Shown one piece after another: positions 6,271-19,307 of a DNA stretch of 64,000 nucleotides. How positions within the stretch are numbered: the first letter of the stretch is position 1; each line of letters opens with the position of its first letter. This DNA comes from Acidobacteriaceae bacterium KBS 83 (lineage in GTDB: Bacteria > Acidobacteriota > Terriglobia > Terriglobales > Acidobacteriaceae). The position numbers and the translations under genes are program-made. The notes beneath the pieces were generated by a model. It saw only the letters and a list, made by a program, of their open reading frames with translations, made no database searches and had not been told where the DNA came from. The DNA is taken from contig KB906733.1 of assembly GCA_000381585.1 (NCBI GenBank), positions 62,001-126,000 of the forward strand, given 5' to 3'.

Positions 6271-7512
6271 CTACGCACCCTGCTGCGCACGAGACTTCGG
6301 ACTGGGCTGCTTGGTCTCCCATTGCTGAAGCGTCATGACACATCGAAAGCCAAGGTGATTCGTCCCGGTATCGGTGTCGCCCTTGCCCCGCGTGCCCACC
6401 ATGTAACGCGAGCAGTATTGATCAGTGCACAGAAATGAGCCGCCACGCTGCGCCTTTTTCGCATGGCCCGGTTCAGCAGGATCGAACGCCGACTCCGGCC
6501 CCTCCGGGTTTCGTGCTACGCCGCCCTGCGCTACAAGTTGCTGGTAGTAGTCGGGCCGGTACCAGTCGCTTGTCCACTGCCACACATCCCCTGCCATGTC
6601 ATAAAGCCCATATCCATTGGCCGGAAACGTAGCAACCGGCGAGATGCCGGCATAGCCGTCGCCTCCAGTATCTTTGTCGGGAAAGTGTCCCTGGTGTGTG
6701 TTGGCCATCCAGCGTCCACTGGGTCGAAACTCATCGCCCCAGATGTAAGGCTTGCCCGCAAGACCACCCCGCGCCGCGAACTCCCACTCCGCCTCCGTCG
6801 GCAGTCTCTTCCCGGCCCACTTCGCATATGCAACTGCATCCTCGTATGCCACCTGGACGACGGGATAGTTGTCCTTTCCCGTGATGCTGCTCTTCGGACC
6901 AAGTGGATGACGCCAATTTGCGCCCGCAACATAATTCCACCACTGAAAGTAGTCGTTGAGAGGCACCCCGTGATCGGGCGGGCTAAAGACCACCGAGCCC
7001 GCGACCAGATTCTCCGGTGGCGCTCCAGGAAAGTCCTCCGCGCGCGGCTTTCTTTCCGCAACGGTGACATATCCAGTCGCCCGAACGAACTTCGCAAATT
7101 CCGCATTGGTGACATCGCTCTTGTCCATGAAGAAGCCATCGACATAAACGCGGTGAACAGGGCGGGAATCGATCGTCGCCTTCATCCCCACCTCATCCAT
7201 GTCCGGTGGATCCTGCGCGCCCATCGAGAACTCTCCGCCGGAAATCCAGGCCATGCCGCGCGGTGTTTTCGCTGGAGCGGGGGAGGCATTCGGTTCCGTT
7301 GCAGCGAATGCGGCATTCGCTGCGGGGGGCGGCATCGGAGCTACGGCCGAAGCGGGCGGCGCCACGCGTGCATCGGCGCGCCCCGGAGACATTTGCCTGT
7401 AGGCGATGACACCCACGATCGCCGCCATGACGATCGCGGCGTATGCCAGCCAGCGGCGTTTGCTCTGTTCTTTATTTGCTCGCGCCGTCTTACTTGTTTT
7501 TCGTTGACTCAT
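6271..7512 (-). CDS. Formylglycine-generating enzyme (FGE/SUMF1-type) with N-terminal membrane anchor
   Basis: This 413-residue protein has a membrane anchor at about 21-38, then an Ala/Pro-rich linker (to about 85), then a complete FGE-sulfatase domain. Family stretches are MAWISGGEFSMGA, DGFFMDKSDVTNAEF, RLPTEAEWEFAARGG, GLYDMAGDVWQWTSDWY and NHLGFRC. Unlike many relatives (EgtB, PvdO), it keeps both active-site cysteines in GGSFLCTDQYCSRY (Cys362 and Cys367, five residues apart). These are the copper-binding pair of aerobic FGEs that oxidise a sulfatase cysteine to formylglycine. The charged N terminus before the helix predicts the catalytic domain on the periplasmic side. No sulfatase gene is in the window. 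The function is strongly suggested by the residues, but substrates are unknown. Confidence 0.88.
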   Translation of the reverse strand: MSQRKTSKTARANKEQSKRRWLAYAAIVMAAIVGVIAYRQMSPGRADARVAPPASAVAPMPPPAANAAFAATEPNASPAPAKTPRGMAWISGGEFSMGAQDPPDMDEVGMKATIDSRPVHRVYVDGFFMDKSDVTNAEFAKFVRATGYVTVAERKPRAEDFPGAPPENLVAGSVVFSPPDHGVPLNDYFQWWNYVAGANWRHPLGPKSSITGKDNYPVVQVAYEDAVAYAKWAGKRLPTEAEWEFAARGGLAGKPYIWGDEFRPSGRWMANTHQGHFPDKDTGGDGYAGISPVATFPANGYGLYDMAGDVWQWTSDWYRPDYYQQLVAQGGVARNPEGPESAFDPAEPGHAKKAQRGGSFLCTDQYCSRYMVGTRGKGDTDTGTNHLGFRCVMTLQQWETKQPSPKSRAQQGA

Positions 7513-7953
7513 AAACAGCTCTTCACTCTACAAGTGTTCCCGCCTCTGAAAGATACTCGGCCGGCGCATCGGCCAAAAAAGCAAAACCGTGCCTCATCTG
7601 GAACCGTGCAGCCGGACCTATTGCGCAGATTCCATCGGCCTTGGCTGCATGCAGTACTCTACTCGCCCAGTGTGTGGACAGCTGAATTCGGGTCGTGCCG
7701 TGCAGGAGACCGCCGCCGGCACACCGCCGCCGTGCCTCACTCGAATCTGCGAGATGCCAAAACCTCGTGTACCGGCCAGCATAGGTGTCTTGGCGGCCGG
7801 TTCAACTGGCAAAATTGACAGGTGGTCGGGACGTGAGGCGCGACTGTGAAGAATGCTAGTTGCGAATATCTATCGACCAGGGTCAGCCTTGGAGTCTGTA
7901 AGCGACTATAACCAGGCTGCCGACCGGGATGCGCATGCCTATGACGGGTGACC
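7513..7953. other. Divergent intergenic region
   Basis: About 440 bases separate the FGE homologue (minus) from the secreted unknown (plus). It should hold the promoters of both. I found no convincing -35/-10 pair, repeat or RNA structure, and the short open frames look spurious. Confidence 0.4.
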
Positions 7954-8628
7954 ATGCCAAGGGTAGCGGGGATTCTGGCAGTCGCGATAGGGTGTCTCAC
8001 TCAGGCATTTCTTTGCCATGGTCAGTCGCAATCGCAGACCACAGAGAACCAGATCAATGTGAACTGGCTCTATGGCTCATACATCCCGAAGGGTGTTCCC
8101 CGGCTGCCTCTGAATGGTCATCAACGCGCGGTCCTCTACGTCAGGCAGACCTACACCACGCCCGGCATTTACGTGAAGACAACATTCTTTGCGCTCCGCG
8201 ACCAGGCCGCGTATCCGCAATGGGGAGACGGATTTGGAGGGTTCGCAAAGCGGCTCGGAAACCACCAGGTTCAATTCATCATTCAGAACTCCATTACATC
8301 ATTGGGAAACGGCGTGGTCGGATGGGAGCCGCGCTACGACCGCTGCACCTGCGTAGGCTTCTGGCCTCGTACACGGCGCGCAATTGCGAGGAACTTTGTG
8401 ACCTACGATCGAACGGAGAAATCGCAGCGGCCACAACTCATGCCCTATATCGGCGCTTTCGGCTCTGCAGCGCTGGCAACCGAGTGGGACCCGGGAAATT
8501 CCAAATGGACGGTCAAGGGATATCAGGTCGCAGTGACGCAAGTCTTCGTCGGTGCTGGAATCAACCGGATCGGCGAGTTCTCTCCAGAGATCACCCGTAT
8601 TCTGAAAAGAAAGAAGCACGAACCATAG
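7954..8628 (+). CDS. Secreted protein of unknown function
   Basis: This protein has about 224 residues. A signal peptide (IAVAIG-type hydrophobic core ending near FLCHGQS) leads into a soluble domain I do not recognise, with recurrent aromatic and basic residues and the pair CTC in the middle (YDRCTCVGFWPR). The ATG at 7954 is preferred over the in-frame GTG at 7948. The sequence is compatible with a periplasmic or outer-membrane beta-rich protein, for instance VGWEPRYDRC and YIGAFGSAALATEWD. It is flanked by long intergenic spaces, so it is monocistronic. Similar orphan secreted proteins are common in Acidobacteriota; no function can be assigned. Confidence 0.68.
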   Translation: MPRVAGILAVAIGCLTQAFLCHGQSQSQTTENQINVNWLYGSYIPKGVPRLPLNGHQRAVLYVRQTYTTPGIYVKTTFFALRDQAAYPQWGDGFGGFAKRLGNHQVQFIIQNSITSLGNGVVGWEPRYDRCTCVGFWPRTRRAIARNFVTYDRTEKSQRPQLMPYIGAFGSAALATEWDPGNSKWTVKGYQVAVTQVFVGAGINRIGEFSPEITRILKRKKHEP

Positions 8629-9254: not shown

Positions 9255-9893
9255 ATGACGAGGCCCCGAATATTTCTAGCCGACGACCACACTCTGCTGG
9301 TCGACGCGTTTCGCAAATTGCTGGAACCTGAGTTTGAAATCGTAGGCGCTGCCTCCAATGGGCGCGACCTGCTCGCCAATGCCCCGGATTCAAAGCCAGA
9401 TCTGGTCATCGTTGATCTCGGTCTACCGCTGCTGAATGGCATGGCTGCGGGCCGCGAGCTCAAGAAGCTGCTCCCTCGGACGCGGATCCTTGTCGTCACT
9501 GTGAATGAAGATTCCGCTGTTGCTCACGAGGCCCTCCGCGAATGGGCCTCAGGTTATTTGTTAAAGAAATCCGCGGCCTCAGAACTCACTTATGCCATTC
9601 GAGAGATCTTGAGCGGCAAGACCTACGTGGCGCCGTCCGTGGCGAAAAAGTTGACCGAGGACTTCATTCGTGACCCCGTGACGCGCTCTAAGGGATCTCT
9701 CACGCCCCGGCAACGCGAGGTCCTCCAGTTGCTCGCCGAAGGACGAACGATGAAGGAAGCGGCAAACGTATTGAATCTCACCACGCGAACAGTGGCCTTC
9801 CATAAGTACAGAATCATGGAAGACTTCGGCATGCACAGCAACTCGGAACTCTACAAACTGGCCATACGCGAGCGTCTGGTCTCCATGGGCTGA
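9255..9893 (+). CDS. NarL/FixJ-family response regulator (receiver + LuxR-type HTH)
   Basis: This 212-residue regulator has an intact receiver: the acidic pair Asp10/Asp11, phosphoacceptor Asp54 in VIVDLGLP, Thr82 and Lys104 in YLLKKS. From about 149 to the end there is a LuxR-type DNA-binding domain (LTPRQREVLQLLAEGRTMKE, then LNLTTRTVAFHKYRIM). It should be a phosphorylation-controlled transcription factor. No kinase gene is adjacent, so it is an orphan here. It is clearly paralogous to the degenerate regulator encoded at 17973-18596, above all in the HTH. A sensor kinase operon of the matching NarX/HisKA_3 class lies 5 kb away and is a candidate partner by inference. Confidence 0.93.
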   Translation: MTRPRIFLADDHTLLVDAFRKLLEPEFEIVGAASNGRDLLANAPDSKPDLVIVDLGLPLLNGMAAGRELKKLLPRTRILVVTVNEDSAVAHEALREWASGYLLKKSAASELTYAIREILSGKTYVAPSVAKKLTEDFIRDPVTRSKGSLTPRQREVLQLLAEGRTMKEAANVLNLTTRTVAFHKYRIMEDFGMHSNSELYKLAIRERLVSMG

Positions 9894-9958
9894 ACAGCCG
9901 ACGCTTCCATTTCAGATGTCACCCATGGATGGATGGAACGTGCTCTCCTCGTACGCGC

Positions 9959-11044
9959 TCAGAATGTCCAGCCAACACCGCTGCTGATGCCCAGCTCATT
10001 CTTCTTCGCTGTGCTTGGAGGACGGCTGTCGTAGTTATCCCAGAATGATAGGTTTGTGTAAAAGTTACTTGGAAGTTTCACGTAGAACGTGGTCTTTGTT
10101 GTTGCGCGAATGCGGCCGGCGTCCGATAGACCGGGAAAAAGAAACAAGTACGATTGCAGATTATATCGGCTGAAGCGGAGCAGCTGATACTTAGCGCCGA
10201 GCAAAGCCTCAATATTCTGACTGGGTGGCTGAGCAGCGGTGGCTTCAAACTGCTCGTGGGTGTAAACCGCGCCGAGTATCCATAGGCCGGTATTCTGATT
10301 TGTTCGAAACACATATTGACCGTAACCGCCTCCCAGCGTGGAGCGAAGTTGCAAATCTTGTTGAGAGCTATGCAGAAAATCGGACAGGGCTACCACAGAC
10401 GAGTTTTTGCCCATAAAACGTTCCAGTGTCCCGGACACTTCCTGGAGGTTAGTCGTGGAGCTGTTCGTTTGCCCGCTGAAAGAGGAGGTCAAATTGACGC
10501 CCCCGCGCCAGCGCGTCGTGGAATACGATGCGCTCGCGTTCGTGGCCAGTGAAACCTGGCTATTGCCGCTGGTAAAGTCAGAACCAAAATCCATCGAACC
10601 AGTAAGCTGTCTCCAGAAATTCCGTTTCCTGGTTTCGATACCGACTACGTCCGGGCCTGCGGCGCTTACGGTAGAGCTGCCTGCGCGTATCTCAAAGTCC
10701 TTTCCTGGCGCTTTCTTTGATGGCACTTTTCCTATCGTCCCAGCCAGATGGCTGCCATCCTTAAGGACAACCTGGAACACGGCGGGGCTTTTGACCGACT
10801 CCACTTGGAGCCAGTCCAATTGGATCGAACTGGACACATAGTCAACGCCGAAATACAGGATCCCGTTATCAAGTTTGCTTATTTCGCCCGTTAGACGATC
10901 GCCATTTTTCATGATCACGAGATCGCGGTTCTTTATCGCGTGGGCTGAAACCGTCGCCCAGGCGAGTAGGAAGCAAATCGTGAAGCGGCCAATGTTTGAC
11001 TCTGCACAGTGAAGGCGCGGCATTCTCGCTCCCGGAAGCCGCAT
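9959..11044 (-). CDS. DUF481-family outer-membrane beta-barrel protein
   Basis: This 361-residue protein has an N-terminal signal peptide (hydrophobic FTICFLLAWATVSAHA). Methionine 8 is an alternative start. Residues about 37-140 are beta-rich (DLVIMKNGDRLTGEISKLDN, VLKDGSHLAGTIGK), resembling the small strand-rich module often found ahead of DUF481. The rest is a DUF481/YdiY-like barrel with alternating strands, ending in aromatic WTF as expected for barrel assembly recognition. No pore or enzyme function is evident. It is single on its strand. A 22-base tandem repeat lies just upstream of its start (11068-11111) and may be regulatory. Confidence 0.86.
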   Translation of the reverse strand: MRLPGARMPRLHCAESNIGRFTICFLLAWATVSAHAIKNRDLVIMKNGDRLTGEISKLDNGILYFGVDYVSSSIQLDWLQVESVKSPAVFQVVLKDGSHLAGTIGKVPSKKAPGKDFEIRAGSSTVSAAGPDVVGIETRKRNFWRQLTGSMDFGSDFTSGNSQVSLATNASASYSTTRWRGGVNLTSSFSGQTNSSTTNLQEVSGTLERFMGKNSSVVALSDFLHSSQQDLQLRSTLGGGYGQYVFRTNQNTGLWILGAVYTHEQFEATAAQPPSQNIEALLGAKYQLLRFSRYNLQSYLFLFPGLSDAGRIRATTKTTFYVKLPSNFYTNLSFWDNYDSRPPSTAKKNELGISSGVGWTF

Positions 11045-11425
11045 GTAGCGGCCGAAGATGTAAGCTCGGTTCGAAAAGAATAGCGTTACGGCTCGAAAAG
11101 AATCGCGTTATACGGTTGCGGCGGACCTTTACCCTGCAGGACCTTTCGCTTTGTGCGGGTTGTCGGCGTCTCGCCGCGTTGACCGCCCTGCAGGTGCGCA
11201 CTGCCCGCGGTCCGCAAACTTGTCCAGCGGCAATCCATCGAAGGACTCCAGCCAACTTGGCAGGATATTGAGCTGCCATGGTCGTCTGTACCTGTCAAAA
11301 CTGCCAGTACAGTTGTGCGGCAACGCCGACGCATACTGGATTTCCCCGAGCCCGCGCACGGGTACGACACTCTTTTCACGAAAATGCTTTAATCATCTCC
11401 GGCCCGGGCTCAAGGAGGGGAAAGA
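11045..11425. other. Divergent intergenic region with short tandem repeat
   Basis: About 380 bases lie between the DUF481 gene (minus) and the DUF2252 gene (plus). Apart from the 22-base duplicate near the DUF481 start and a strong ribosome-binding site for DUF2252 (AAGGAGG at 11412-11418), nothing is recognised. Confidence 0.45.
11068..11111. repeat. Two tandem copies of a 22-base element upstream of the DUF481 gene
   Basis: The copy at 11068-11089 (GGTTCGAAAAGAATAGCGTT plus AC) is followed immediately by a copy at 11090-11111 (GGCTCGAAAAGAATCGCGTT plus AT). They differ at three positions. A 22-base period is about two helical turns, so both copies face the same side of the DNA. This is compatible with a tandem operator 24 bases upstream of the minus-strand start codon. 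Confidence 0.7.
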
Positions 11426-12835
11426 ATGAAAAAGCCAGCGATAGAGAGGCTTCACGCATTTGACTTGGACCGCGCCATGGTCCCATGGGAGCTGCGGCGC
11501 CAGGAAGGCAAGGAACTGCGCCGCACAGTGCCGCGTGAGTCGCACGCTGCATGGAAGCCCGGAAAGACGCGGCCCGACCCCGTAGAAACCGTGCAGGCGA
11601 ACAACAAAGGACGGCAAGCGAACCTGATTCCATTGCGCATGGGGCGCATGGCCGCCTCGCCGTTCGCATTCTTGCGTGGCTCAGCATGCGTCATGGCACG
11701 CGATCTCGCTGAGACACCTATCACCGGCTCCTCCGTTGTGATCGACGGCGATGCTCATCTGAATAATTTCGGCTTGTACGGCACGCCACAGCGTGAGGTC
11801 GTATTTGATCTCAACGACTTCGACGAAGCGGTATTCGGCCCCTGGGAGTGGGATTTGAAGCGCCTGGTTGCCAGCGTAAATGTGGCAGGGCGGCAAAACG
11901 GATTAAACGCGCGCGAGCGGGCGGCGGCTGTCGAGCGCTGCGTAAGCGGCTACCGGTTCAATGTCAACCGCCTGCAACAGATGGGTGTCTTGGACGTGTG
12001 GTATCTCCACGCCTATCCTGACCGCAAGAACCCCATTCTGAAGATCGATCCCAAGTCAAAGGCGGTCATCGCAAAGACGCTCGCCAAGGCGCAAAGAACC
12101 GACAACCGCGCACTTCTACCCAAAGTCGCTGATCACGGCACCGATGGGTCGTGGACTTTTCGCGAAGATCCCCCCATCCTGACCAAAGTCGACAAAGCGA
12201 CACGCGACAAAGTAGTGAAAGGCCTGAATGACTACTCAGAGTCTCTTTCACTCGAAAGGCGTTTTATGCTGAGCCGGTATCACGTGGCTGACGTGGCGCA
12301 CAGAGTGGTCGGTGTGGGATCGGTCGGCACGCGGGCATATCTTGTTCTGCTCTTTGGGAACGGTGATGACGATCCTCTGTTCCTGCAGGTAAAGGAATCC
12401 GTTGCGCCCGCGCTTGCACCGTTTGTGCCGAAACTCCCCGTGTACGAGCACAACGGGAAGCGCGTCGTCGTCGGCCACAGAGCCCTTCAGGCATCGTCCG
12501 ATCCCATGCTTGGCTACACCAGGATCGAAGGCCGCGATTATTACGTAAGACAAATGAAAAATCTCAAGGCCTCCATGCCGGTTGAGTTCCTTACTGGGGT
12601 TACGTTCAATTTCTACGCCTGGGCCTGCGGAACTATCCTTGCGCGTGCTCACTCCCGGACCGGCGATCCTGCGCGTATCGCTGGCTATTGTGGCAATTCC
12701 CCTGTTCTCGATGAGGCGCTAGCATCCTGGGCGGAAAGTTATGGAGACCAGACGGAGTCGGACCACGCTGCCCTGCTGAAGGCAATCCGCCAGAACAAAG
12801 TGAAGGCTGATCTTACTTCGGTGGATGCTAGCTAG
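11426..12835 (+). CDS. DUF2252 family protein
   Basis: This 469-residue cytoplasmic protein of the DUF2252 family has a kinase/phosphotransferase-like fold (an APH-like core by family knowledge) but no established reaction. Typical stretches are RMGRMAASPFAFLRGSA, VVIDGDAHLNNFGLYGTPQR and VFDLNDFDEAVFGPWEWDLKRL. The last two resemble the catalytic HxDxxxxN and metal DxD segments of aminoglycoside-kinase-like enzymes, so an ATP-dependent role is conceivable. The start is firm: AAGGAGG lies 7 bases ahead of the ATG. It is monocistronic, convergent with the patatin-like gene. Confidence 0.92.
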   Translation: MKKPAIERLHAFDLDRAMVPWELRRQEGKELRRTVPRESHAAWKPGKTRPDPVETVQANNKGRQANLIPLRMGRMAASPFAFLRGSACVMARDLAETPITGSSVVIDGDAHLNNFGLYGTPQREVVFDLNDFDEAVFGPWEWDLKRLVASVNVAGRQNGLNARERAAAVERCVSGYRFNVNRLQQMGVLDVWYLHAYPDRKNPILKIDPKSKAVIAKTLAKAQRTDNRALLPKVADHGTDGSWTFREDPPILTKVDKATRDKVVKGLNDYSESLSLERRFMLSRYHVADVAHRVVGVGSVGTRAYLVLLFGNGDDDPLFLQVKESVAPALAPFVPKLPVYEHNGKRVVVGHRALQASSDPMLGYTRIEGRDYYVRQMKNLKASMPVEFLTGVTFNFYAWACGTILARAHSRTGDPARIAGYCGNSPVLDEALASWAESYGDQTESDHAALLKAIRQNKVKADLTSVDAS

Positions 12836-12919
12836 AAACGCCAATCGTCCGAAACAAGCGGATGTAAGAAGGGTTTCGGCGGCGGGGATTGTCGTGAGAT
12901 TAGAGATGCGCGACGCTGG

Positions 12920-15136
12920 TCAGAACGCCCTGCCGATTTGAAAGAAAAATCTGCCGCGCCCGTAATCCCCGATAGCGCCGCCGATTTCGATTGGGCCGAT
13001 GATTGTCGTAGCGATCAGGCCCGCCGCAAAATCCATCGGCAGGTTGGGTGGTTTGGGACCATTTGGCAGCTGATAGGTCTTTCCCAATTCATATGTGCCG
13101 ATAAAGTCCAGTTTGTCGCCCAGGAAGGGCGGGAGGGATGCCAATGTCCTGATATAGCCCATCTGAAATAGAAAATACTGGTTCGTAAGCAGTTCGTTGC
13201 TTCCCCAAGCCACTAAGTGCTGAGCACCGCCAAGAGAAAATGAGGGTATACCCGTCTTGTAGCCGAAACTCGTGCCGCCGGACGGGTTGAAATATACGGA
13301 AGATCGTCCATTCAGAGGGAAGAAGTTACTGGACTGTACCTCAGCCAGCGGAAATGCTCCGGGTGCATCCGGGTTGACAACGAACCCCTTCGCATACAAC
13401 AGGAGCCTCCTTCCTGCAAGTGGAACAACAGGATTATCCGTATCTTCCACCTGATATTGAGCTCGGATATCGCCGGTTTGGCCAGAGACGGTGGGCAATA
13501 CGGACGAATTCCCGATGATCGGTGACAGCCGTTCATAGGCGCCTTCATAGCCCAGACGCAATTCGCCACTTCGCCCAAAAGCATATCCCGCATCCACACC
13601 GCCGCCAGCCTTTTTCTGCCTGTAGGTCGCCAGAAGTGTTTGATCCGAATAAAGATTGAGCTGACGGCTGAACAGTCCCACACGTGGCGAGATAAACCAA
13701 CGAGTTGTAGGTTTGAACGGATGGTAATACTCGCTGTCCAGAGCATAATTCGAGCCCACAATCACATCGTTGCGCAACTCCGAACGGTAGGTGCCAAAAT
13801 CCGTATACGTGATCCTGGCCCCGACAGTGAACAGCACGTTGTTGTACTGCGATCCATCAATAAAGATCAGCGGGCGGACCAGGGGCGGGATGTAGGGCTT
13901 TCGTTCAGTCTGTATCTGCAAGCCCTGCTGGTTGTTCCTCTCCACCATCGAGTAGGTAAGGCTGAGGAACTGTCCCGTCCCCGACATCCCCATAATGTCT
14001 TTGTTCAGCTTGTCTGTATTGACAGGCGTTCCTGCTAAATCAGAGAGACTCTTTTCGACGTCGTGCGCCAGTTCCGGTCTCCCGCCCACGACCTCGACAA
14101 ACTGCGGCACGGGCGTAGTTTTACGCCGGGCCTCCCGATCGGCTAGATACTGCTTCCACGTGCTCTCGTCGACCGAAAAAGTGGAGAGAACCGCGCTCTT
14201 CGAGGCCGCTGCATCATATCCCGCTTTGATAATTTCGTTCGCCTGGTTGTAGTCCAGGCTCGTGTACTTCTGCAACGGAACCGACACCAGCAGGTCCGCT
14301 TTCTCCATCGAGCGGAGCTCGTTCGCGGCAATCATCACGGAAACAGATCGCCCCAACACCCCAAAACTGGAAAGCGACGCGTCAGGATCCAGCGGTGCTA
14401 CCTCGAGGTGAACTCCCAGCACCACGTCCGCACCCATCTCTTTCGCAACGTCGATCGGGATATTCTGCAACAAACCGCCATCGGCGAAAATATGATTGTC
14501 TGAACGAACCGGCGTAAAAAGTCCCGGCAGGGACATCGTCGATCGCAACGCCAGGGCAAGAGATCCGCTTCGGAAAACATAGGGTTTTCCAGATTGCAGG
14601 TCTGTCGCGACGCAGGCAAATGGGATCGGCAGCTCATTGAAACTTGAAAGCTCGGAATACGGGAGTGCAATACGATCGAGAATCAGCGAAACTTGCTGGC
14701 CGGAATTGAATCCCTCAGGCAAGTGCAATCCCTTGTGCAATCCGAATTCGAGCGTGCTGGGATAGTCACGGGCGTCCTCTTTGCGCCGGAACGTCAGATC
14801 GCTGTAAGGCGTTTGACCCCTCAATACCGCGTCCCAATCGATGCTCTGAACAACCTGCCGCACCTCCGATGCGGATCGTCCAGTTGCATACACTCCGCCG
14901 ACGAGGCCTCCCATGCTGGTTCCGGCGACATAGCTCACCGGTATCCGATGTTCCTCCATCCACTGAATGACCCCGATATGAGCCAATCCCAATGCACCGC
15001 CACCTTCAAGAACCAGGCCTAGCTTTGGACGGCCCGTGCCGGAAGGCAGGGGTTGGTTTTGCGGCAGAGCGTTGGTCGCTGGCAACATTATTCCGGCAAG
15101 GACCAGCGACACTAGCTTCCGGATCTGCATAGCCAA
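12920..15136 (-). CDS. Patatin-like phospholipase with POTRA and outer-membrane barrel (PlpD-like, type Vd autotransporter)
   Basis: This 738-residue protein has a signal peptide at about 1-24 and a patatin domain at about 38-235. That domain has the oxyanion-hole motif GGGALG, nucleophile Ser74 in GTSMGG and dyad Asp219 in FADGGLLQN. A POTRA-like segment follows at about 345-425 (FVEVVGGRPELAHDVEKSL), then a Bac_surface_Ag-type barrel to the C-terminal phenylalanine (FFQIGRAF). This order matches PlpD and FplA, in which a lipase/phospholipase is carried through the outer membrane by its own barrel. The catalytic dyad is complete, so an active surface or secreted lipase is expected. The gene stands alone, convergent with DUF2252 and downstream of the sensor-kinase operon. 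Confidence 0.92.
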   Translation of the reverse strand: MAMQIRKLVSLVLAGIMLPATNALPQNQPLPSGTGRPKLGLVLEGGGALGLAHIGVIQWMEEHRIPVSYVAGTSMGGLVGGVYATGRSASEVRQVVQSIDWDAVLRGQTPYSDLTFRRKEDARDYPSTLEFGLHKGLHLPEGFNSGQQVSLILDRIALPYSELSSFNELPIPFACVATDLQSGKPYVFRSGSLALALRSTMSLPGLFTPVRSDNHIFADGGLLQNIPIDVAKEMGADVVLGVHLEVAPLDPDASLSSFGVLGRSVSVMIAANELRSMEKADLLVSVPLQKYTSLDYNQANEIIKAGYDAAASKSAVLSTFSVDESTWKQYLADREARRKTTPVPQFVEVVGGRPELAHDVEKSLSDLAGTPVNTDKLNKDIMGMSGTGQFLSLTYSMVERNNQQGLQIQTERKPYIPPLVRPLIFIDGSQYNNVLFTVGARITYTDFGTYRSELRNDVIVGSNYALDSEYYHPFKPTTRWFISPRVGLFSRQLNLYSDQTLLATYRQKKAGGGVDAGYAFGRSGELRLGYEGAYERLSPIIGNSSVLPTVSGQTGDIRAQYQVEDTDNPVVPLAGRRLLLYAKGFVVNPDAPGAFPLAEVQSSNFFPLNGRSSVYFNPSGGTSFGYKTGIPSFSLGGAQHLVAWGSNELLTNQYFLFQMGYIRTLASLPPFLGDKLDFIGTYELGKTYQLPNGPKPPNLPMDFAAGLIATTIIGPIEIGGAIGDYGRGRFFFQIGRAF

Positions 15137-15298
15137 TCAAATTCTCCAAGCGTGACAAAATCCTAAGGCCCACAAAACTGGCCCAACAACTGGCACAACT
15201 GACAGGTGGCGCAGCGCGAATGTCAACGAGGCGCTCCAATTCGGAGGCGCCGCAAGTAGCTTTATCGGCGGCGGGGACCAGGGCCTCGCGACTCTGAA

Positions 15299-17083
15299 TT
15301 ATTCCCGCGATCCGATGGCGGAATGATCGGCACTGAATCCATTGCTCGTCGGGATCGGCGCCTCAGCGGTCACCACAGTTCCTTCGCCAGGTTTTGACTC
15401 GATGGACAATCTTCCCCCAATGCTGCGAAGACGCTCGTGCATCGCTGTAAATCCAAGTCCGGCAGGAGCCTCCCCAGTCTTGAATCCACGTCCCCAGTCC
15501 TGCACCCGCATTCGTAGCGCTCCCGGTGCCTGAGTCAGACTCACTTGCACTCTGGTTGTATCGCTGTGCTTGACGACGTTGCTCAGGGCCTCCTGCGCGA
15601 CGCGGTAAAAGCAAAGTGGAACATCGCCAGAGAGACCCTCCTGTGCAATCTGTGCCTCAAGATTGATCTGCAATCCGTGTCGTTTCGCCATCTCCTGGCA
15701 CAAGTCCTTCATCGCTGCCTTCAGCCCGAGATGCTCCAGCTTGGAAGAGTGCAGCCGATGCGACAGATTGTGTACATCGGAAATAAGTGCATCCAGCTCT
15801 GCAACCGAATGATCTAGTTCCGTGCGGCTTGCCACTGCGTCTACCGGCAGTTGATTGCCGGACATTCCCAGCTGCACTGAAACCAGAGAAAGTCGCTGGC
15901 CGATATCGTCGTGTAGCTCTCGCGCAATATACCTTCGTTCCTCCTCGCTTGCGCTGATGAGCCGCCCAGTCAGGAGCCCGACGGCCTGATCTGAACGTTT
16001 GCGGGCACGCATTTGAATCGTCAGAAGGATGATAAGAACCGACTGGAGCGCGAGAATCGTGATTCCCACCCAGATGTATTTACGGTAGAGTTCCCAGTCC
16101 GAGAGTTCGCGGTACATGACCGCCGTTCCTGCCGGCAATCTGCTCTCTGGAATATTCCACTTCTTCAACTGTCGCCAATCCACGGCTATCTCATTCGGAG
16201 GCGCCGGCTCAGCTGGGATAGAGGCGACATTCTTACCGTTCATGACCTGGAGTGCAAGGCCCGCAGCCTTGCGGACGGATGCCTCTATTTGCAAAAGACT
16301 ACCGCCAACAATTCCACATCCCATGAGGGTCTCAAATGTCCCATATACGGGCGCATTCGAGGAGTCGACGATCAGTTGGCATACGCGCTTTGGGATATAC
16401 AGTTGCCCACGGGCATCCCTGAAGAATGTACTGAAGAGTACAGCGCTGTGACTGGGAAGCTGGCCCAGACGACTCAACATTTGTGACAGTGGCAGGTCCT
16501 CGAGATACTCAAAGTCCAGCCTTCCCTCATAACTCTTAAATTCCTCCGCCACACCGTTTCGTCGCGATATGTCATCGGCAGACGAGCCCGCAACCACGAC
16601 GATCCGCTGCGTATCCGGCTGTAATTTGAGGATTAGACCCACCGTGCTTGCATAACTGATGGTGTTGCTCACCCCGGTTACGTTGTGCGGCAATTCTGGC
16701 GGCAGCGTTCTGGATTCGATAAACGAGAAAACAATCGGCACTGCCGGGAAAAGCTGTTCTCCGTACTTCATCATGAAGCTGAAGGCAGGCGGCCCCACGG
16801 TCAGGATCACATTCATCTTCTTGCCGGCATACTTCTGGGTGATCCTCTCTGCGAATGCCGGATACTCAGCAGTCAGTCGGTTTTCATCCATGTACTCTTC
16901 AAAAATCTGAGTGCCGGGTTCTCGTCCTATGGTTTCCTGGATCGCCTTCGCGGCGACGATATTTGCAGGAAGGCGAGAGCTTTCCATGTGAAGCACAAGT
17001 ACGTTCTTCACGTTCTCGGCGCGCGCCGAGGATAGCAGGAATGTCGCCGCCAACCCCACAATTACTTGGCGCCAAAGCTTCAT
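15299..17083 (-). CDS. Sensor histidine kinase with ABC-substrate-binding-type periplasmic sensor
   Basis: This 594-residue protein has a signal/anchor at 1-22 and a periplasmic domain at about 25-300 resembling ABC_sub_bind proteins (VILTVGPPAFSFMM, IESRTLPPELPHNVTGVSNT). A membrane helix at about 336-358 is followed by a HisKA_3 domain with His391 in IARELHDDIGQRL. A HATPase_c domain covers about 485-577, with N box AQEALSNVVKHS and G boxes DWGRGF and GLGFTAMHERL. This is the NarX/DegS class, which phosphorylates LuxR-type regulators. The periplasmic solute-binding-type fold suggests direct sensing of a small ligand, identity unknown. It lies 136 bases downstream of a REC-only regulator on the same strand, which implies an operon. 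Confidence 0.93.
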   Translation of the reverse strand: MKLWRQVIVGLAATFLLSSARAENVKNVLVLHMESSRLPANIVAAKAIQETIGREPGTQIFEEYMDENRLTAEYPAFAERITQKYAGKKMNVILTVGPPAFSFMMKYGEQLFPAVPIVFSFIESRTLPPELPHNVTGVSNTISYASTVGLILKLQPDTQRIVVVAGSSADDISRRNGVAEEFKSYEGRLDFEYLEDLPLSQMLSRLGQLPSHSAVLFSTFFRDARGQLYIPKRVCQLIVDSSNAPVYGTFETLMGCGIVGGSLLQIEASVRKAAGLALQVMNGKNVASIPAEPAPPNEIAVDWRQLKKWNIPESRLPAGTAVMYRELSDWELYRKYIWVGITILALQSVLIILLTIQMRARKRSDQAVGLLTGRLISASEEERRYIARELHDDIGQRLSLVSVQLGMSGNQLPVDAVASRTELDHSVAELDALISDVHNLSHRLHSSKLEHLGLKAAMKDLCQEMAKRHGLQINLEAQIAQEGLSGDVPLCFYRVAQEALSNVVKHSDTTRVQVSLTQAPGALRMRVQDWGRGFKTGEAPAGLGFTAMHERLRSIGGRLSIESKPGEGTVVTAEAPIPTSNGFSADHSAIGSRE

Positions 17084-17219
17084 CGGTTAAAGACTACACT
17101 GCGATGCAAGCCCAGACTGTAAATGCAAGAACACCGGAAAGAGCAACCAGAACGCTGCGCCGAACCCACTCAGCATTGTTCCGGCCAGATATCTCCCCAT
17201 GCGGCCCGTGAATCGCACG

Positions 17220-17642
17220 TCAGGACAAATGGGGGCCCGATGGCAGCGTCGGGGAAAAGAAAAGCTTTCCCTCCATCGCTTCCCGTGCCGCCACCAGAAG
17301 ATCGCTGTGCATGCGGCGCTTTATCACATAGCTGCCACCTATCTCACGAGCGGCGTAGGCGTAGTCTGCATCTTCCATCACCGTGAGAAACACAATCCTG
17401 GTTGCACGAGAGCTTTCTTTCAATCGTCGTGCCGTCTCGAACCCGTTTCTTCCTGGCATGCCTATGTCCAAAATCACCAGATCTGGATGAAGAGTTGAGA
17501 CTGCGTCGAGAGCCGCGTCGCCGCCAGGCGCAGTGGCTAGAATGTCGAACTCACCCTTCATGATGTCGCACGCGGTCACGAGTGCGCCGGGATGATCGTC
17601 AATCAGGACTACGGTTGCCTTAGGCTTCGAGGACTGTGTCAT
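17220..17642 (-). CDS. Receiver-only response regulator
   Basis: This protein of about 140 residues consists of a single receiver domain. The ATG at 17642 (MTQSSKPK) is chosen because the upstream extension has no homology; a longer reading begins at 17714. All phosphorylation residues are present: Asp15/Asp16, Asp59 in LVILDIGMPG, Thr87 and Lys109 in SYVIKRR. There is no DNA-binding domain: the protein stops about 20 residues after the last receiver helix. As the gene just ahead of the NarX-type kinase, it is the obvious phosphorylation partner, but it cannot act on DNA itself. It could be a phosphate sink, a protein-protein switch or an intermediate relay. Confidence 0.88.
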   Translation of the reverse strand: MTQSSKPKATVVLIDDHPGALVTACDIMKGEFDILATAPGGDAALDAVSTLHPDLVILDIGMPGRNGFETARRLKESSRATRIVFLTVMEDADYAYAAREIGGSYVIKRRMHSDLLVAAREAMEGKLFFSPTLPSGPHLS

Positions 17643-17972
17643 GTCTCCCGCCTGGTCAAACGCTCGTGGAAGGGAACTCACGTTCACCCTACGACTACGA
17701 TGGTGACCTGCCAACTGTCAGAAAGCGCAGAAGTACTACCCAATTACCTCGACACGGTCGCCGGAGCCTCTATGAGAGCGATGCGTGCCGCGTAGACGGA
17801 TGCAATTCTCATCCAGCCGTTTCCTGTAACTTCTGACAGTTCCAGCCCCGTTTAGATAAACCTATCCTTGCGAAGCAACGTGGATTCCGGGATTGTGTGC
17901 TCCTCCTGCGTTGGGTTCCCGCGTGGAGTCTTCCTGGTGGAGAGCGGGTTTTCAGACCGCCAAGGGGAACGA
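17643..17972. other. Divergent promoter region between two regulator genes
   Basis: About 330 bases lie between the REC-only regulator (minus) and the degenerate regulator (plus). A CAACTGTCAGAAAG motif at about 17711 recurs inverted at 17828 (CTTCTGACAGTTC). This gives two half sites about 110 bases apart that could bind one dimeric factor or be a coincidence. Confidence 0.4.
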
Positions 17973-18596
17973 ATGAGTATGAGCCGGCCTCGCATAGTAT
18001 TGGCTGACGAACGCGCATCGTTCTTGGTTGCATATCAGGAACTTCTCCAATCGGAGTTTGACGTAGTTGGAACTTTCTCCGATCTGGCGAGTGTTATGAC
18101 AGCAGCCGTCGAACTGCAACCGGACGTCATCGTCACCGCGTTACCTTCATTGACGGAATTGGGCGCCATTCGCCAGCTGAAGAAACTGGTTCCACGGACA
18201 AAGCTGTTGGCGATTGCGAAGAAAGAGGATGCTCTCGTCGCGTCGCGTACTCTCCACGGCTGTGCCTCCGGGATGCTGTTGCGTCGTGCTGCAAAAAAGG
18301 AGCTTCCCCGTGCCCTGCGTTATTTGGCGGAAGGAAAGTCATACGTAACAGCGTCCCTTGCAAAACAACTGGCAGAGGGTGCCTCTCACTCCCATAAGGC
18401 CCTTACCCATCGCCAGCGCGAAGTGCTGCAACTGCTCGCCGATGGACGCACAATGAGGCAAGCAGCCCAAATGTTGAATCTGACTACCAGGACCGTGGCC
18501 TTTCACAAATACCGGATCATGAAAGATTTCGGCCTTCACACAAATATGGACCTCATCAAGCTGGCCATACGCGAGCACCTGGCATCAATCGAATAG
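17973..18596 (+). CDS. LuxR-type regulator with degenerate (non-phosphorylatable) receiver
   Basis: This 207-residue protein starts at the ATG at 17973 (MSMSRPRIVLAD), preceded by AAGGGGAAC. The N-terminal domain aligns with the receiver of the regulator at 9255 but has lost the chemistry. The phosphoacceptor position is Thr (DVIVTALP instead of VIVDLGLP), the switch Thr is Ala, the conserved Lys is Arg (MLLRRAAKK), and the acidic pair is Asp-Glu. The C-terminal LuxR HTH is intact and nearly the same as in the 9255 paralogue (LTHRQREVLQLLADGRTM, LNLTTRTVAFHKYRIM). It is probably a constitutive, ligand-controlled or dimerisation-controlled DNA-binding protein, divergently placed to the kinase operon. 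Competition with the paralogue for sites is an inference. Confidence 0.9.
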   Translation: MSMSRPRIVLADERASFLVAYQELLQSEFDVVGTFSDLASVMTAAVELQPDVIVTALPSLTELGAIRQLKKLVPRTKLLAIAKKEDALVASRTLHGCASGMLLRRAAKKELPRALRYLAEGKSYVTASLAKQLAEGASHSHKALTHRQREVLQLLADGRTMRQAAQMLNLTTRTVAFHKYRIMKDFGLHTNMDLIKLAIREHLASIE

Positions 18597-18653
18597 CCGC
18601 CGCTCGGCTCGCAACGTCGCCGTCCCGGCAAGACCAACATATACTCTGGTGTC

Positions 18654-19307
18654 ATGGTCGCAAAGGCGAAGGGACGCATCCCGCCGGACATGGATCCCGC
18701 GCTCCTCGAAGAGACCTTCTCGCAGCAGCTGACCTCCGGGACCGTCTCCGATGCAACAGCCATAGATACGATATTGCCGCCGCTCTTTAGTCCACGCGGC
18801 CAGCCATCCACCGTCGATCGTTGCATCTGGCGGTCTGTCACGCTCTCCCATCCCGGCGCACAGCGTCTGCGCATGCGCGACTCACGGATCGAAAATGCTG
18901 ACCTGGCTAATATCAATCTGACTGGCAGCTCCTTCGAACGCGTCGAGATCCTGTCCACGCGCCTCACTGGCGCGACATGCAGTGAGGCACAGTGGAGCAG
19001 TGTGTTGTTTCAGGAGTGCAAACTCGACCTCGCACTTCTGCGCATGGCTCGTCTGGACCGCTGCGTCTTCGAGCGCTGCAACCTCACCGAAACCGACTTC
19101 TACTCAGCCGATCTCACCGGTGTAATCTTCCGCAAATGTGATCTGAGCCGTGCCGACCTCTCCCACGCGAAGCTCGCCGGAGCCGATATCCGCGACTGCC
19201 GTATCGAGGGTATGCGCGGCACCCCTGCCACCATGGCCGGCCTCCTCGTCAGTGCTGATCAGGCGCCCCTTCTTATCACGCTGTTCGGTGTCCGCGTCGA
19301 ACCGTGA
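18654..19307 (+). CDS. Pentapeptide-repeat protein
   Basis: This 217-residue soluble protein has at least 15 consecutive A(D/N)LxN-type pentapeptides between about residues 65 and 185. Examples are IENADLANINLTGSSFE, NLTETDFYSADLTGV and LSRADLSHAKLAGADIRD. They predict a right-handed quadrilateral beta-helix. The N-terminal 60 residues are a non-repeat cap. A C-terminal stretch (TPATMAGLLVSADQAPLLI) is shared by many small cytoplasmic pentapeptide proteins. The biochemical role is unknown; gyrase mimicry (Qnr-like) is known only for a subset and is not indicated here. The start is 57 bases after the regulator gene, so co-transcription is possible. Confidence 0.9.
   Translation: MVAKAKGRIPPDMDPALLEETFSQQLTSGTVSDATAIDTILPPLFSPRGQPSTVDRCIWRSVTLSHPGAQRLRMRDSRIENADLANINLTGSSFERVEILSTRLTGATCSEAQWSSVLFQECKLDLALLRMARLDRCVFERCNLTETDFYSADLTGVIFRKCDLSRADLSHAKLAGADIRDCRIEGMRGTPATMAGLLVSADQAPLLITLFGVRVEP

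Follow-up and report, generated by a model that had tools for sequence, protein, structure and literature searches.

BldM and WhiI of Streptomyces are regulators of the NarL/LuxR type. Both are atypical, and it is as a heterodimer with BldM that WhiI acts (PMC4125116). Judging by the accessible text of the source papers, this pair and the CmrRST system of Clostridioides difficile (PMC12548384) are the nearest known cases to the regulator described here, which we call RRx. Differences are apparent in both cases. BldM and WhiI are orphans, and the accessible text does not describe them as recent duplicates with a common operator (PMC4125116). In CmrRST, as at our locus, an ordinary kinase/regulator pair (CmrS and CmrR) is accompanied by a second, pseudo-receiver regulator (CmrT), and the intact CmrR recognises a DNA sequence that is also found upstream of the system (PMC12548384). 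Similar to RRx, the pseudo-receiver regulator is encoded near the kinase and the intact regulator. However, CmrRST belongs to the OmpR family and forms one operon (PMC12632262), whereas RRx is divergent from its kinase and the intact regulator RR_9255 lies 8 kb off. A REC-only protein is present at the RRx locus, but none is named for CmrRST in the accessible text. Since the three genes are not in one operon, the RRx system may work like CmrRST but is not classed as one.

Two other groups are informative. RcsB, the nearest solved fold to RRx, has auxiliary partners (RcsA, BglJ and GadE) and engages in phosphorylation-independent interactions, but it retains its Asp (PMC5829831), and the N-terminal domain of RcsA is not a typical receiver (PMC4125116). 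RitR and ChxR likewise possess a receiver fold without normal Asp phosphorylation (PMC4395418; PMC12632262); however, they are of the OmpR/PhoB type (PMC4395418; PMC3960148), and the accessible text does not mention, for either, an intact duplicate that shares its recognition helix. Pseudo-receivers make up about 6% of bacterial receivers in the representative set of one survey, their regulation is little understood, and a 2025 perspective calls their activation and inactivation a mystery (PMC12632262). We found no publications in the open literature on the RRx system, its subfamily or its operator. The locus is of interest because one genome brings together RRx as pseudo-receiver regulator, RR_9255 as its intact duplicate, the kinase, the REC-only protein that accompanies them, and 32 sites of a probable operator. 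With all components and a site list in a single genome, models of RRx as a competitor, a heterodimer partner or a constitutive activator differ in their predictions at named DNA sites. The operator, together with a list of envelope and sulfatase genes, also offers a lead for a two-component subfamily.

The window, i.e. the whole 64-kb stretch that was analysed, is G000:C1:62001-126000 of a 6.25-Mb genome in 21 contigs. The initial annotation had placed RRx divergently beside a REC-only gene and a kinase, and this arrangement was confirmed, with the kinase on the same strand as the REC-only gene. Kinase, REC-only protein, RRx and RR_9255 are all encoded within positions 9255-18596:

9255-9893, plus strand: RR_9255, intact paralogue with a recognition helix identical to that of RRx (Pfam, alignment)
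15299-17083, minus strand: sensor kinase with ABC_sub_bind, HisKA_3 and HATPase_c domains (Pfam)
17220-17642, minus strand: REC-only protein, phosphorylation residues D, D, D, T and K retained, no DNA-binding domain found by Pfam
17973-18596, plus strand: RRx, NarL-type regulator of 207 amino acids with a pseudo-receiver and an intact GerE helix-turn-helix (HTH) (open reading frame, Pfam, alignment)

The H-, N- and G-boxes of the kinase were seen by eye in its translation. The start of the REC-only frame could be farther upstream. Genes were called with a simple codon-score script that set the RRx start at 18000 rather than 17973; reading of the sequence places AAGGGG, which resembles a ribosome-binding site, immediately 5′ of the ATG. 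A scan of positions 17000-18700 for sigma-70 promoters and terminators found none.

Receiver and DNA-binding domain of RRx

RRx consists of a receiver fold followed by a GerE-type HTH, as NarL/FixJ (LuxR-type) regulators require (Pfam, AlphaFold2, Foldseek). Pfam recognised GerE at E 2.1e-13 (50.1 bits) and Response_reg at E 4.4e-5 (24.0 bits), the latter under the Pfam cut-off of 30.2 bits; the corresponding scores of RR_9255 are 54.5 and 76.4 bits. The AlphaFold2 model comprises a full receiver and HTH with a mean pLDDT of 92.4, predicting that the receiver fold is kept, and the best solved matches in Foldseek were RcsB.

Residues were compared in a subfamily alignment of 88 rows, RRx and 87 others. 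It derives from 93 rows with an HTH score above 80, from which a second copy of RRx and four sequences whose frame did not include a receiver (L142, L156, L158 and L165) were dropped before the tree was built. The phospho-Asp is present in 86 of the 87 other rows (the remaining one has a gap), and RRx has a gap at this column. The switch Thr/Ser, found in 85/87, is Ala in RRx, and the active-site Lys, found in 86/87, is Arg104; both changes had been described in the initial annotation and are borne out. The aromatic residue (Tyr/Phe) three positions before the Lys occurs in all 87 other rows and is Met in RRx. The claim that every phosphorylation residue had been lost holds for Asp, Thr and Lys; the acidic pair, on the other hand, survives as D12-E13 in place of D-D, with its acidity retained. 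The accompanying claim that Thr had replaced the Asp depends on the alignment, and we rejected it as a literal substitution. The β3-α3 loop region of RRx is two residues shorter. β3 spans residues 52-56 in RRx and 50-54 in RR_9255, where it ends at Asp54, so in a secondary-structure register taken from the predicted structures rather than from superposition the Asp position is Ala56, with Thr55 adjacent. Asp was missing from RRx in every register considered. Arg104 stands in for Lys at the start of α5, which begins four residues earlier than in RR_9255.

Among the 88 rows, RRx alone combines the absence of Asp, Thr, Lys and the aromatic residue. Its uniqueness lies in the combined losses and not in Asp alone, since L141 (3356-4015, genome G360) is also without Asp. 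That regulator has an in-frame deletion of the phospho-Asp region and retains its HTH, Thr and Lys; the deletion is possibly an assembly fault, as the G360 genome is in 1090 contigs. The genome of RRx also encodes a distant LuxR-type regulator (L006, G000:C7:423284-423754) with Gly for the phospho-Asp.

RRx therefore has a receiver fold without phosphotransfer residues, which is the definition of a pseudo-receiver, in its aspartate-less subset (PMC12632262). The residue losses bear out the view that it is without what a normal phospho-receiver needs. With its fold intact and its phosphorylation chemistry gone, such a receiver could instead take up a ligand: VpsT binds c-di-GMP, and RRx might similarly respond to a second messenger or other small molecule as a one-component sensor. 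VpsT-type regulators carry a c-di-GMP motif and an extra receiver helix. VpsT was indeed among the structural matches of RRx, but at low ranks (39, 40 and 47), and its c-di-GMP motif was not seen in RRx by eye. We consider this explanation very unlikely.

The HTH presents a different picture. RRx and RR_9255 share 48 of 64 HTH residues (75%) and 42 of 111 receiver residues, whereas pairwise identities among five intact members (ten pairs) are 54-69% in the receiver and 63-72% in the HTH. The HTH had been called nearly identical to that of the paralogue; this is too strong for the domain overall but accurate for the recognition-helix stretch TTRTVAFHKYRIM, where 13/13 residues agree. At the level of aligned residues, then, RRx has lost its phosphorylation and Tyr-Thr coupling residues and kept a DNA-binding domain with an identical recognition helix.

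Conservation relative to the intact group has fallen in α1, β2, α2, α3, β4, α5, the phosphate loops, the linker helix and HTH α8. It is close to the group's own level in β3, α4, β5, HTH α7, the recognition helix and α10. This pattern bears on the proposal that RRx is only a heterodimer partner of RR_9255, similar to WhiI with BldM, and widens or shifts the target set rather than acting as a brake. The near-normal conservation of HTH α7, the recognition helix and α10, and of receiver α4-β5, speaks for this proposal, although α4 and β5 are weak evidence because they comprise only 9 and 4 residues. The linker helix, α1 and α5 are dimer surfaces in some NarL proteins. All three are strongly diverged in RRx, and HTH α8 partly so, which counts against the proposal. 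Precedent is available from BldM-WhiI (PMC4125116), from data suggesting CmrR-CmrT heterodimers (PMC12548384) and from RcsB, a partner of other regulators without phosphorylation (PMC5829831), as far as these sources are accessible. We regard a pure heterodimer partner as a serious possibility, though on balance a doubtful one.

Origin of RRx and constraint on its sequence

The nearest relatives of RRx are in its own genome, namely RR_9255 (51%) and then a regulator with a kinase of its own alongside (C6:205918-206544, 40%). With RR_9255 set aside, the best match among 398 family genomes reached 50%, and none of the 397 genomes of the order that were searched held anything closer. These sets are overlapping samples of larger groups, and an RRx orthologue was found in neither. 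In the sole other genome of the genus (G040, 85% complete), neither RRx nor the kinase had a match at E <= 1e-20; even among members of one genus, the distribution of the module may thus be patchy. A search of contigs returned 5 distant relatives only.

In the tree, five rows form a clade (support 100/98): RRx, RR_9255 and intact regulators from three other genomes (G129, G158 and G176). The placement of RRx inside the clade lacks consistent support (90/9). An HTH-only tree groups RRx, RR_9255 and the G158 and G176 regulators at 72. The end branch of RRx measures 0.84 vs 0.28 for RR_9255. With the topology fixed, the branches of RRx are 1.142 for the receiver and 0.414 for the HTH, the latter being ordinary next to the HTH branches of G176 (0.43), G158 (0.65) and G129 (0.65). 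Clade placement and the difference between the two domains indicate that RRx is a diverged duplicate of an RR_9255-type regulator, with the receiver evolving ahead of the HTH. Receiver-biased branches also occur in some members with intact residues, with ratios of 2.26 and 2.25 vs 3.33 for RRx. The receiver branch of L087 (1.113) is nearly as long as that of RRx, and L106 and L138 are more receiver-biased than RRx.

A long branch, the failure to find an orthologue in the family and order samples, and relatives that retain the phosphorylation residues could all be read as signs of a decaying duplicate (a young pseudogene) or a sequencing error. Relatives with Asp and Lys had been named beforehand as pointing to this explanation. 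The residues are indeed kept in relatives, but rate and codon tests oppose both error and decay. The frame is open over 207 codons. Comparison of RRx with RR_9255 gave ps 0.73 and pn 0.14 in the HTH (intact pairs, pn 0.19-0.26) and ps 0.77 and pn 0.42 in the receiver (intact pairs, pn 0.20-0.32); since no RRx orthologue was found in the genomes searched, these values come from a single sequence compared with its paralogue, and synonymous sites are saturated. Neutral simulation, in which RR_9255 was mutated to 58% receiver identity in 400 frames, left 1.75% of frames open and an HTH identity of at least 75% in 0.25%. The ordinary HTH branch, the ribosome-binding-like sequence and the confident predicted fold point the same way. 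Based on the simulation and ps/pn we rejected sequencing error or a pseudogene, explanations to which we assign a very small probability. Drift or sequencing error is an unlikely origin of RRx, and the codon comparison argues for clear constraint on its DNA-binding domain. Recent gene conversion between the HTH halves was also rejected, given a synonymous difference of 0.73.

A probable operator and its candidate targets

The REC/RRx intergenic region contains a perfect 11-bp inverted repeat, which accounts for two of the three occurrences of TTCTGACAGTT in the genome. Comparison with relatives led to a 16-bp palindrome, CTGTCA-N4-TGACAG, with a wider consensus of about AACTGTCANNNNTGACAGTT. 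Co-occurrence and the common recognition helix form the basis for the view that this is probably the operator of this LuxR subfamily. The sites and possible targets in the window are as follows (repeat arms and operators carry no strand):

17713-17723: left arm AACTGTCAGAA of the REC/RRx inverted repeat, a half operator
17831-17841: right arm TTCTGACAGTT of the same repeat
17824-17839: CTGTAACTTCTGACAG, operator with one mismatch in the REC/RRx intergenic region
17715-17730: CTGTCAGAAAGCGCAG, weak operator with three mismatches in the REC/RRx intergenic region
15190-15205: CTGGCACAACTGACAG, operator with one mismatch, upstream of the patatin gene
11292-11307: CTGTCAAAACTGCCAG, operator with one mismatch, flanked by the genes for DUF481 and DUF2252
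7806-7821: CTGGCAAAATTGACAG, operator with one mismatch, flanked by the FGE-sulfatase-type gene and the gene at 7954
6271-7512, minus strand: FGE-sulfatase (formylglycine-generating-enzyme-like) protein, possible target
9959-11044, minus strand: DUF481 protein, possible target
12920-15136, minus strand: patatin-like protein, possible target

We compared 63 module loci (996 kb, including the genome's own C6 locus and a few overlapping stretches) with 13 comparison loci (217 kb). The module loci held 29 perfect copies and 105 with at most one mismatch, and the comparison loci held none of either; at up to two mismatches the counts were 236 and 3. In the module loci, other half-site spacings from 0 to 12 gave 0-4 copies each, and the other 179 of 180 half-site arrangements gave at most 15 copies. 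Only 5 of 103 non-redundant sites fell within called genes, though 79% of the sequence is coding. The locus comparison is not an independent test because the half-site was picked after inspecting those loci. Nor does the operator go with every part of the 88-row tree, since six of the comparison loci (L160, L163, L164, L170, L173 and L177) hold its more distant members; the other seven hold other regulators.

A test on 200 genomes is more independent, though some of its 24 regulator-bearing genomes (match to RRx at E <= 1e-34) had served to find the site. These contained 67 perfect operators, with at least one in 18/24 and none in 6/24, against 23 in the other 176 genomes (20/176); Fisher's p of 1e-10 overstates independence because the genomes are related. 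Many of the 176 carry more distant relatives (e.g. G063, G172 and G174), as 110 of the 200 match at E <= 1e-20. A reversed-pattern control occurred once in each of 5 of the 200 genomes.

Two other site types were considered. PhoB boxes are direct repeats of CTGTCAT, according to the accessible text of PMC3333781, and PhoB-like direct repeats at spacing 3 gave 20 + 29 matches on the two strands, but many among the 45 of 56 listed are inverted sites read across. Direct repeats at spacings 2 and 4-7 numbered 0-3 per strand. A short CTGWCAG palindrome, found 5 times in 21 upstream regions (2 being RRx's own), was superseded by the 16-bp site.

All four copies with at most one mismatch in the window (7806, 11292, 15190 and 17824) are intergenic. 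No operator with up to three mismatches was found directly upstream of RR_9255. The 7806 operator lies before the gene at 7954, and RR_9255 follows that gene on the same strand after a gap of 630 bp; read-through from this operator might therefore control RR_9255. RRx itself adjoins an operator, whereas RR_9255 has none directly upstream, and RRx might be phosphorylation-independent and always active, with only its level controlled, the kinase setting output through RRx expression. Such a class of model has been described for pseudo-receivers (PMC12632262, accessible text). An RRx that activated itself at its own operator would, however, tend to lock on, and we find this explanation rather unlikely.

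The genome contains 32 sites with at most one mismatch, 8 of them inside called genes. Among the genes beside the other 24 are those for sulfatases (3) and an FGE-sulfatase-type protein; DUF3300 (2), DUF1254/DUF1214, DUF481, DUF2490, DUF2252 and DUF4136 proteins; a Phenol_MetA_deg protein, a patatin, an SLT/SBP_bac_3 protein, MlaE, OmpA and a MIP channel; PEP_mutase, Pyr_redox_2 and glycoside-hydrolase-type proteins; and the C6 kinase. Several genes beside sites were without a Pfam match, and one beside an intergenic site (L209:3433-6000) was left out of the Pfam scan. In the loci of relatives, where 108/787 of all genes adjoin an operator, the fractions were 5/12 for DUF3300, 5/16 for DUF4136, 3/6 for OmpA, 2/2 for SLT and 2/5 for Sulfatase, compared with 14/82 for the regulator, 4/32 for the REC-only gene and 4/32 for the kinase. 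Since the last three are hardly above average, autoregulation is not a conserved feature. Patatin, DUF2252 and DUF1254 genes stood beside an operator in 0/2 cases each, and DUF481 homologues occurred in 9 of 45 loci of relatives.

The module in relatives and possible roles of RRx

Recurrence of the three-gene layout in relatives had been set beforehand as a test, and the kinase, REC-only gene and complete regulator do recur together. Neighbours were counted for 62 regulators of the subfamily, RRx and RR_9255 among them, whose flanks extend to 4 kb or more on both sides. A REC-only gene lies within 4 kb of 39, and 12 have a divergent one; a HisKA_3 kinase lies within 8 kb of 40, and 30 have both. 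Two-component systems of this subfamily (E <= 1e-34) occur in 38 of the 398 family genomes. A third, intact member of the subfamily is encoded in the genome of RRx, accompanied by a REC-only gene and a kinase with ABC_sub_bind and HisKA_3 domains (L054 5218-9372; G000:C6, about 205217-209371), and a near-perfect operator at C6:209739 is upstream of this kinase.

The initial annotation had read the locus as a split or antagonistic circuit. Recurrence of the kinase, REC-only gene and regulator agrees with this, but in relatives the REC-only gene adjoins an intact regulator (e.g. L055, L058 and L069). The REC-only protein therefore did not evolve as a counterpart to a receiver that had lost its function, and we rejected the idea that it is a recent complement of RRx. 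The novelty at this locus is the dead receiver; the set of kinase, REC-only protein and intact regulator already recurs in relatives. RRx could plausibly act as an antagonist.

From the common recognition helix we infer that RRx binds the same palindromic operator as RR_9255, as a homodimer or heterodimer, without phosphorylation. That RRx is a working pseudo-receiver regulator of CTGTCA-N4-TGACAG operators appears likely to us. With somewhat less assurance, we lean towards RRx being a phosphorylation-independent paralogue of RR_9255 on the same operators, perhaps itself under operator control, that serves as feedback or as a heterodimer partner. In such a circuit the kinase would phosphorylate RR_9255, and RR_9255-P would act at operators including the REC/RRx intergenic one. 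More REC-only protein would drain phosphoryl groups as a phosphate sink, and more RRx would occupy or co-occupy operators, so that the response would be trimmed or reshaped. The feedback step and the sign of the RRx effect are the least certain parts, and we put forward a net brake only tentatively, as an outcome that we are more inclined to doubt than to expect.

A more elaborate proposal divides the tasks of one regulator among three proteins at a single operator: RR_9255 would switch the regulon, while one operator-controlled divergent promoter would make both the REC-only protein, a DNA-blind phosphate sink, and RRx, a phosphate-blind operator binder. As a brake built by duplication, the two products would act on one signal at two points, trimming its phosphoryl flow as well as its occupancy of operators. 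We judge this double brake to be unlikely. Like our preferred reading of RRx as a phosphorylation-independent paralogue, it is weakened by the regulator and REC-only genes of relatives not being enriched beside operators and by the possible read-through from 7806 into RR_9255. The mismatches in the REC/RRx operator (one) and in its second copy (three) also count against the preferred reading. If the double brake were true, the partial receiver erosion in G213 and in a G107/G153 clade would represent independent steps along the same path.

One locus of G213 (L107 9417-10244, 11859-12296 and 13106-13774) encodes a second regulator with partial erosion, alongside an intact one and a REC-only protein. 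The second regulator retains its Asp, while its first acidic residue has become Ser and its Lys has become Arg. Second copies in G107 (L138 9084-9719) and G153 (L106 6882-7553) have a changed switch region, receiver-biased rates and a hardly altered HTH, again with Asp retained. As the G107 and G153 copies form one clade, receiver erosion elsewhere amounts to at most two further lineages.
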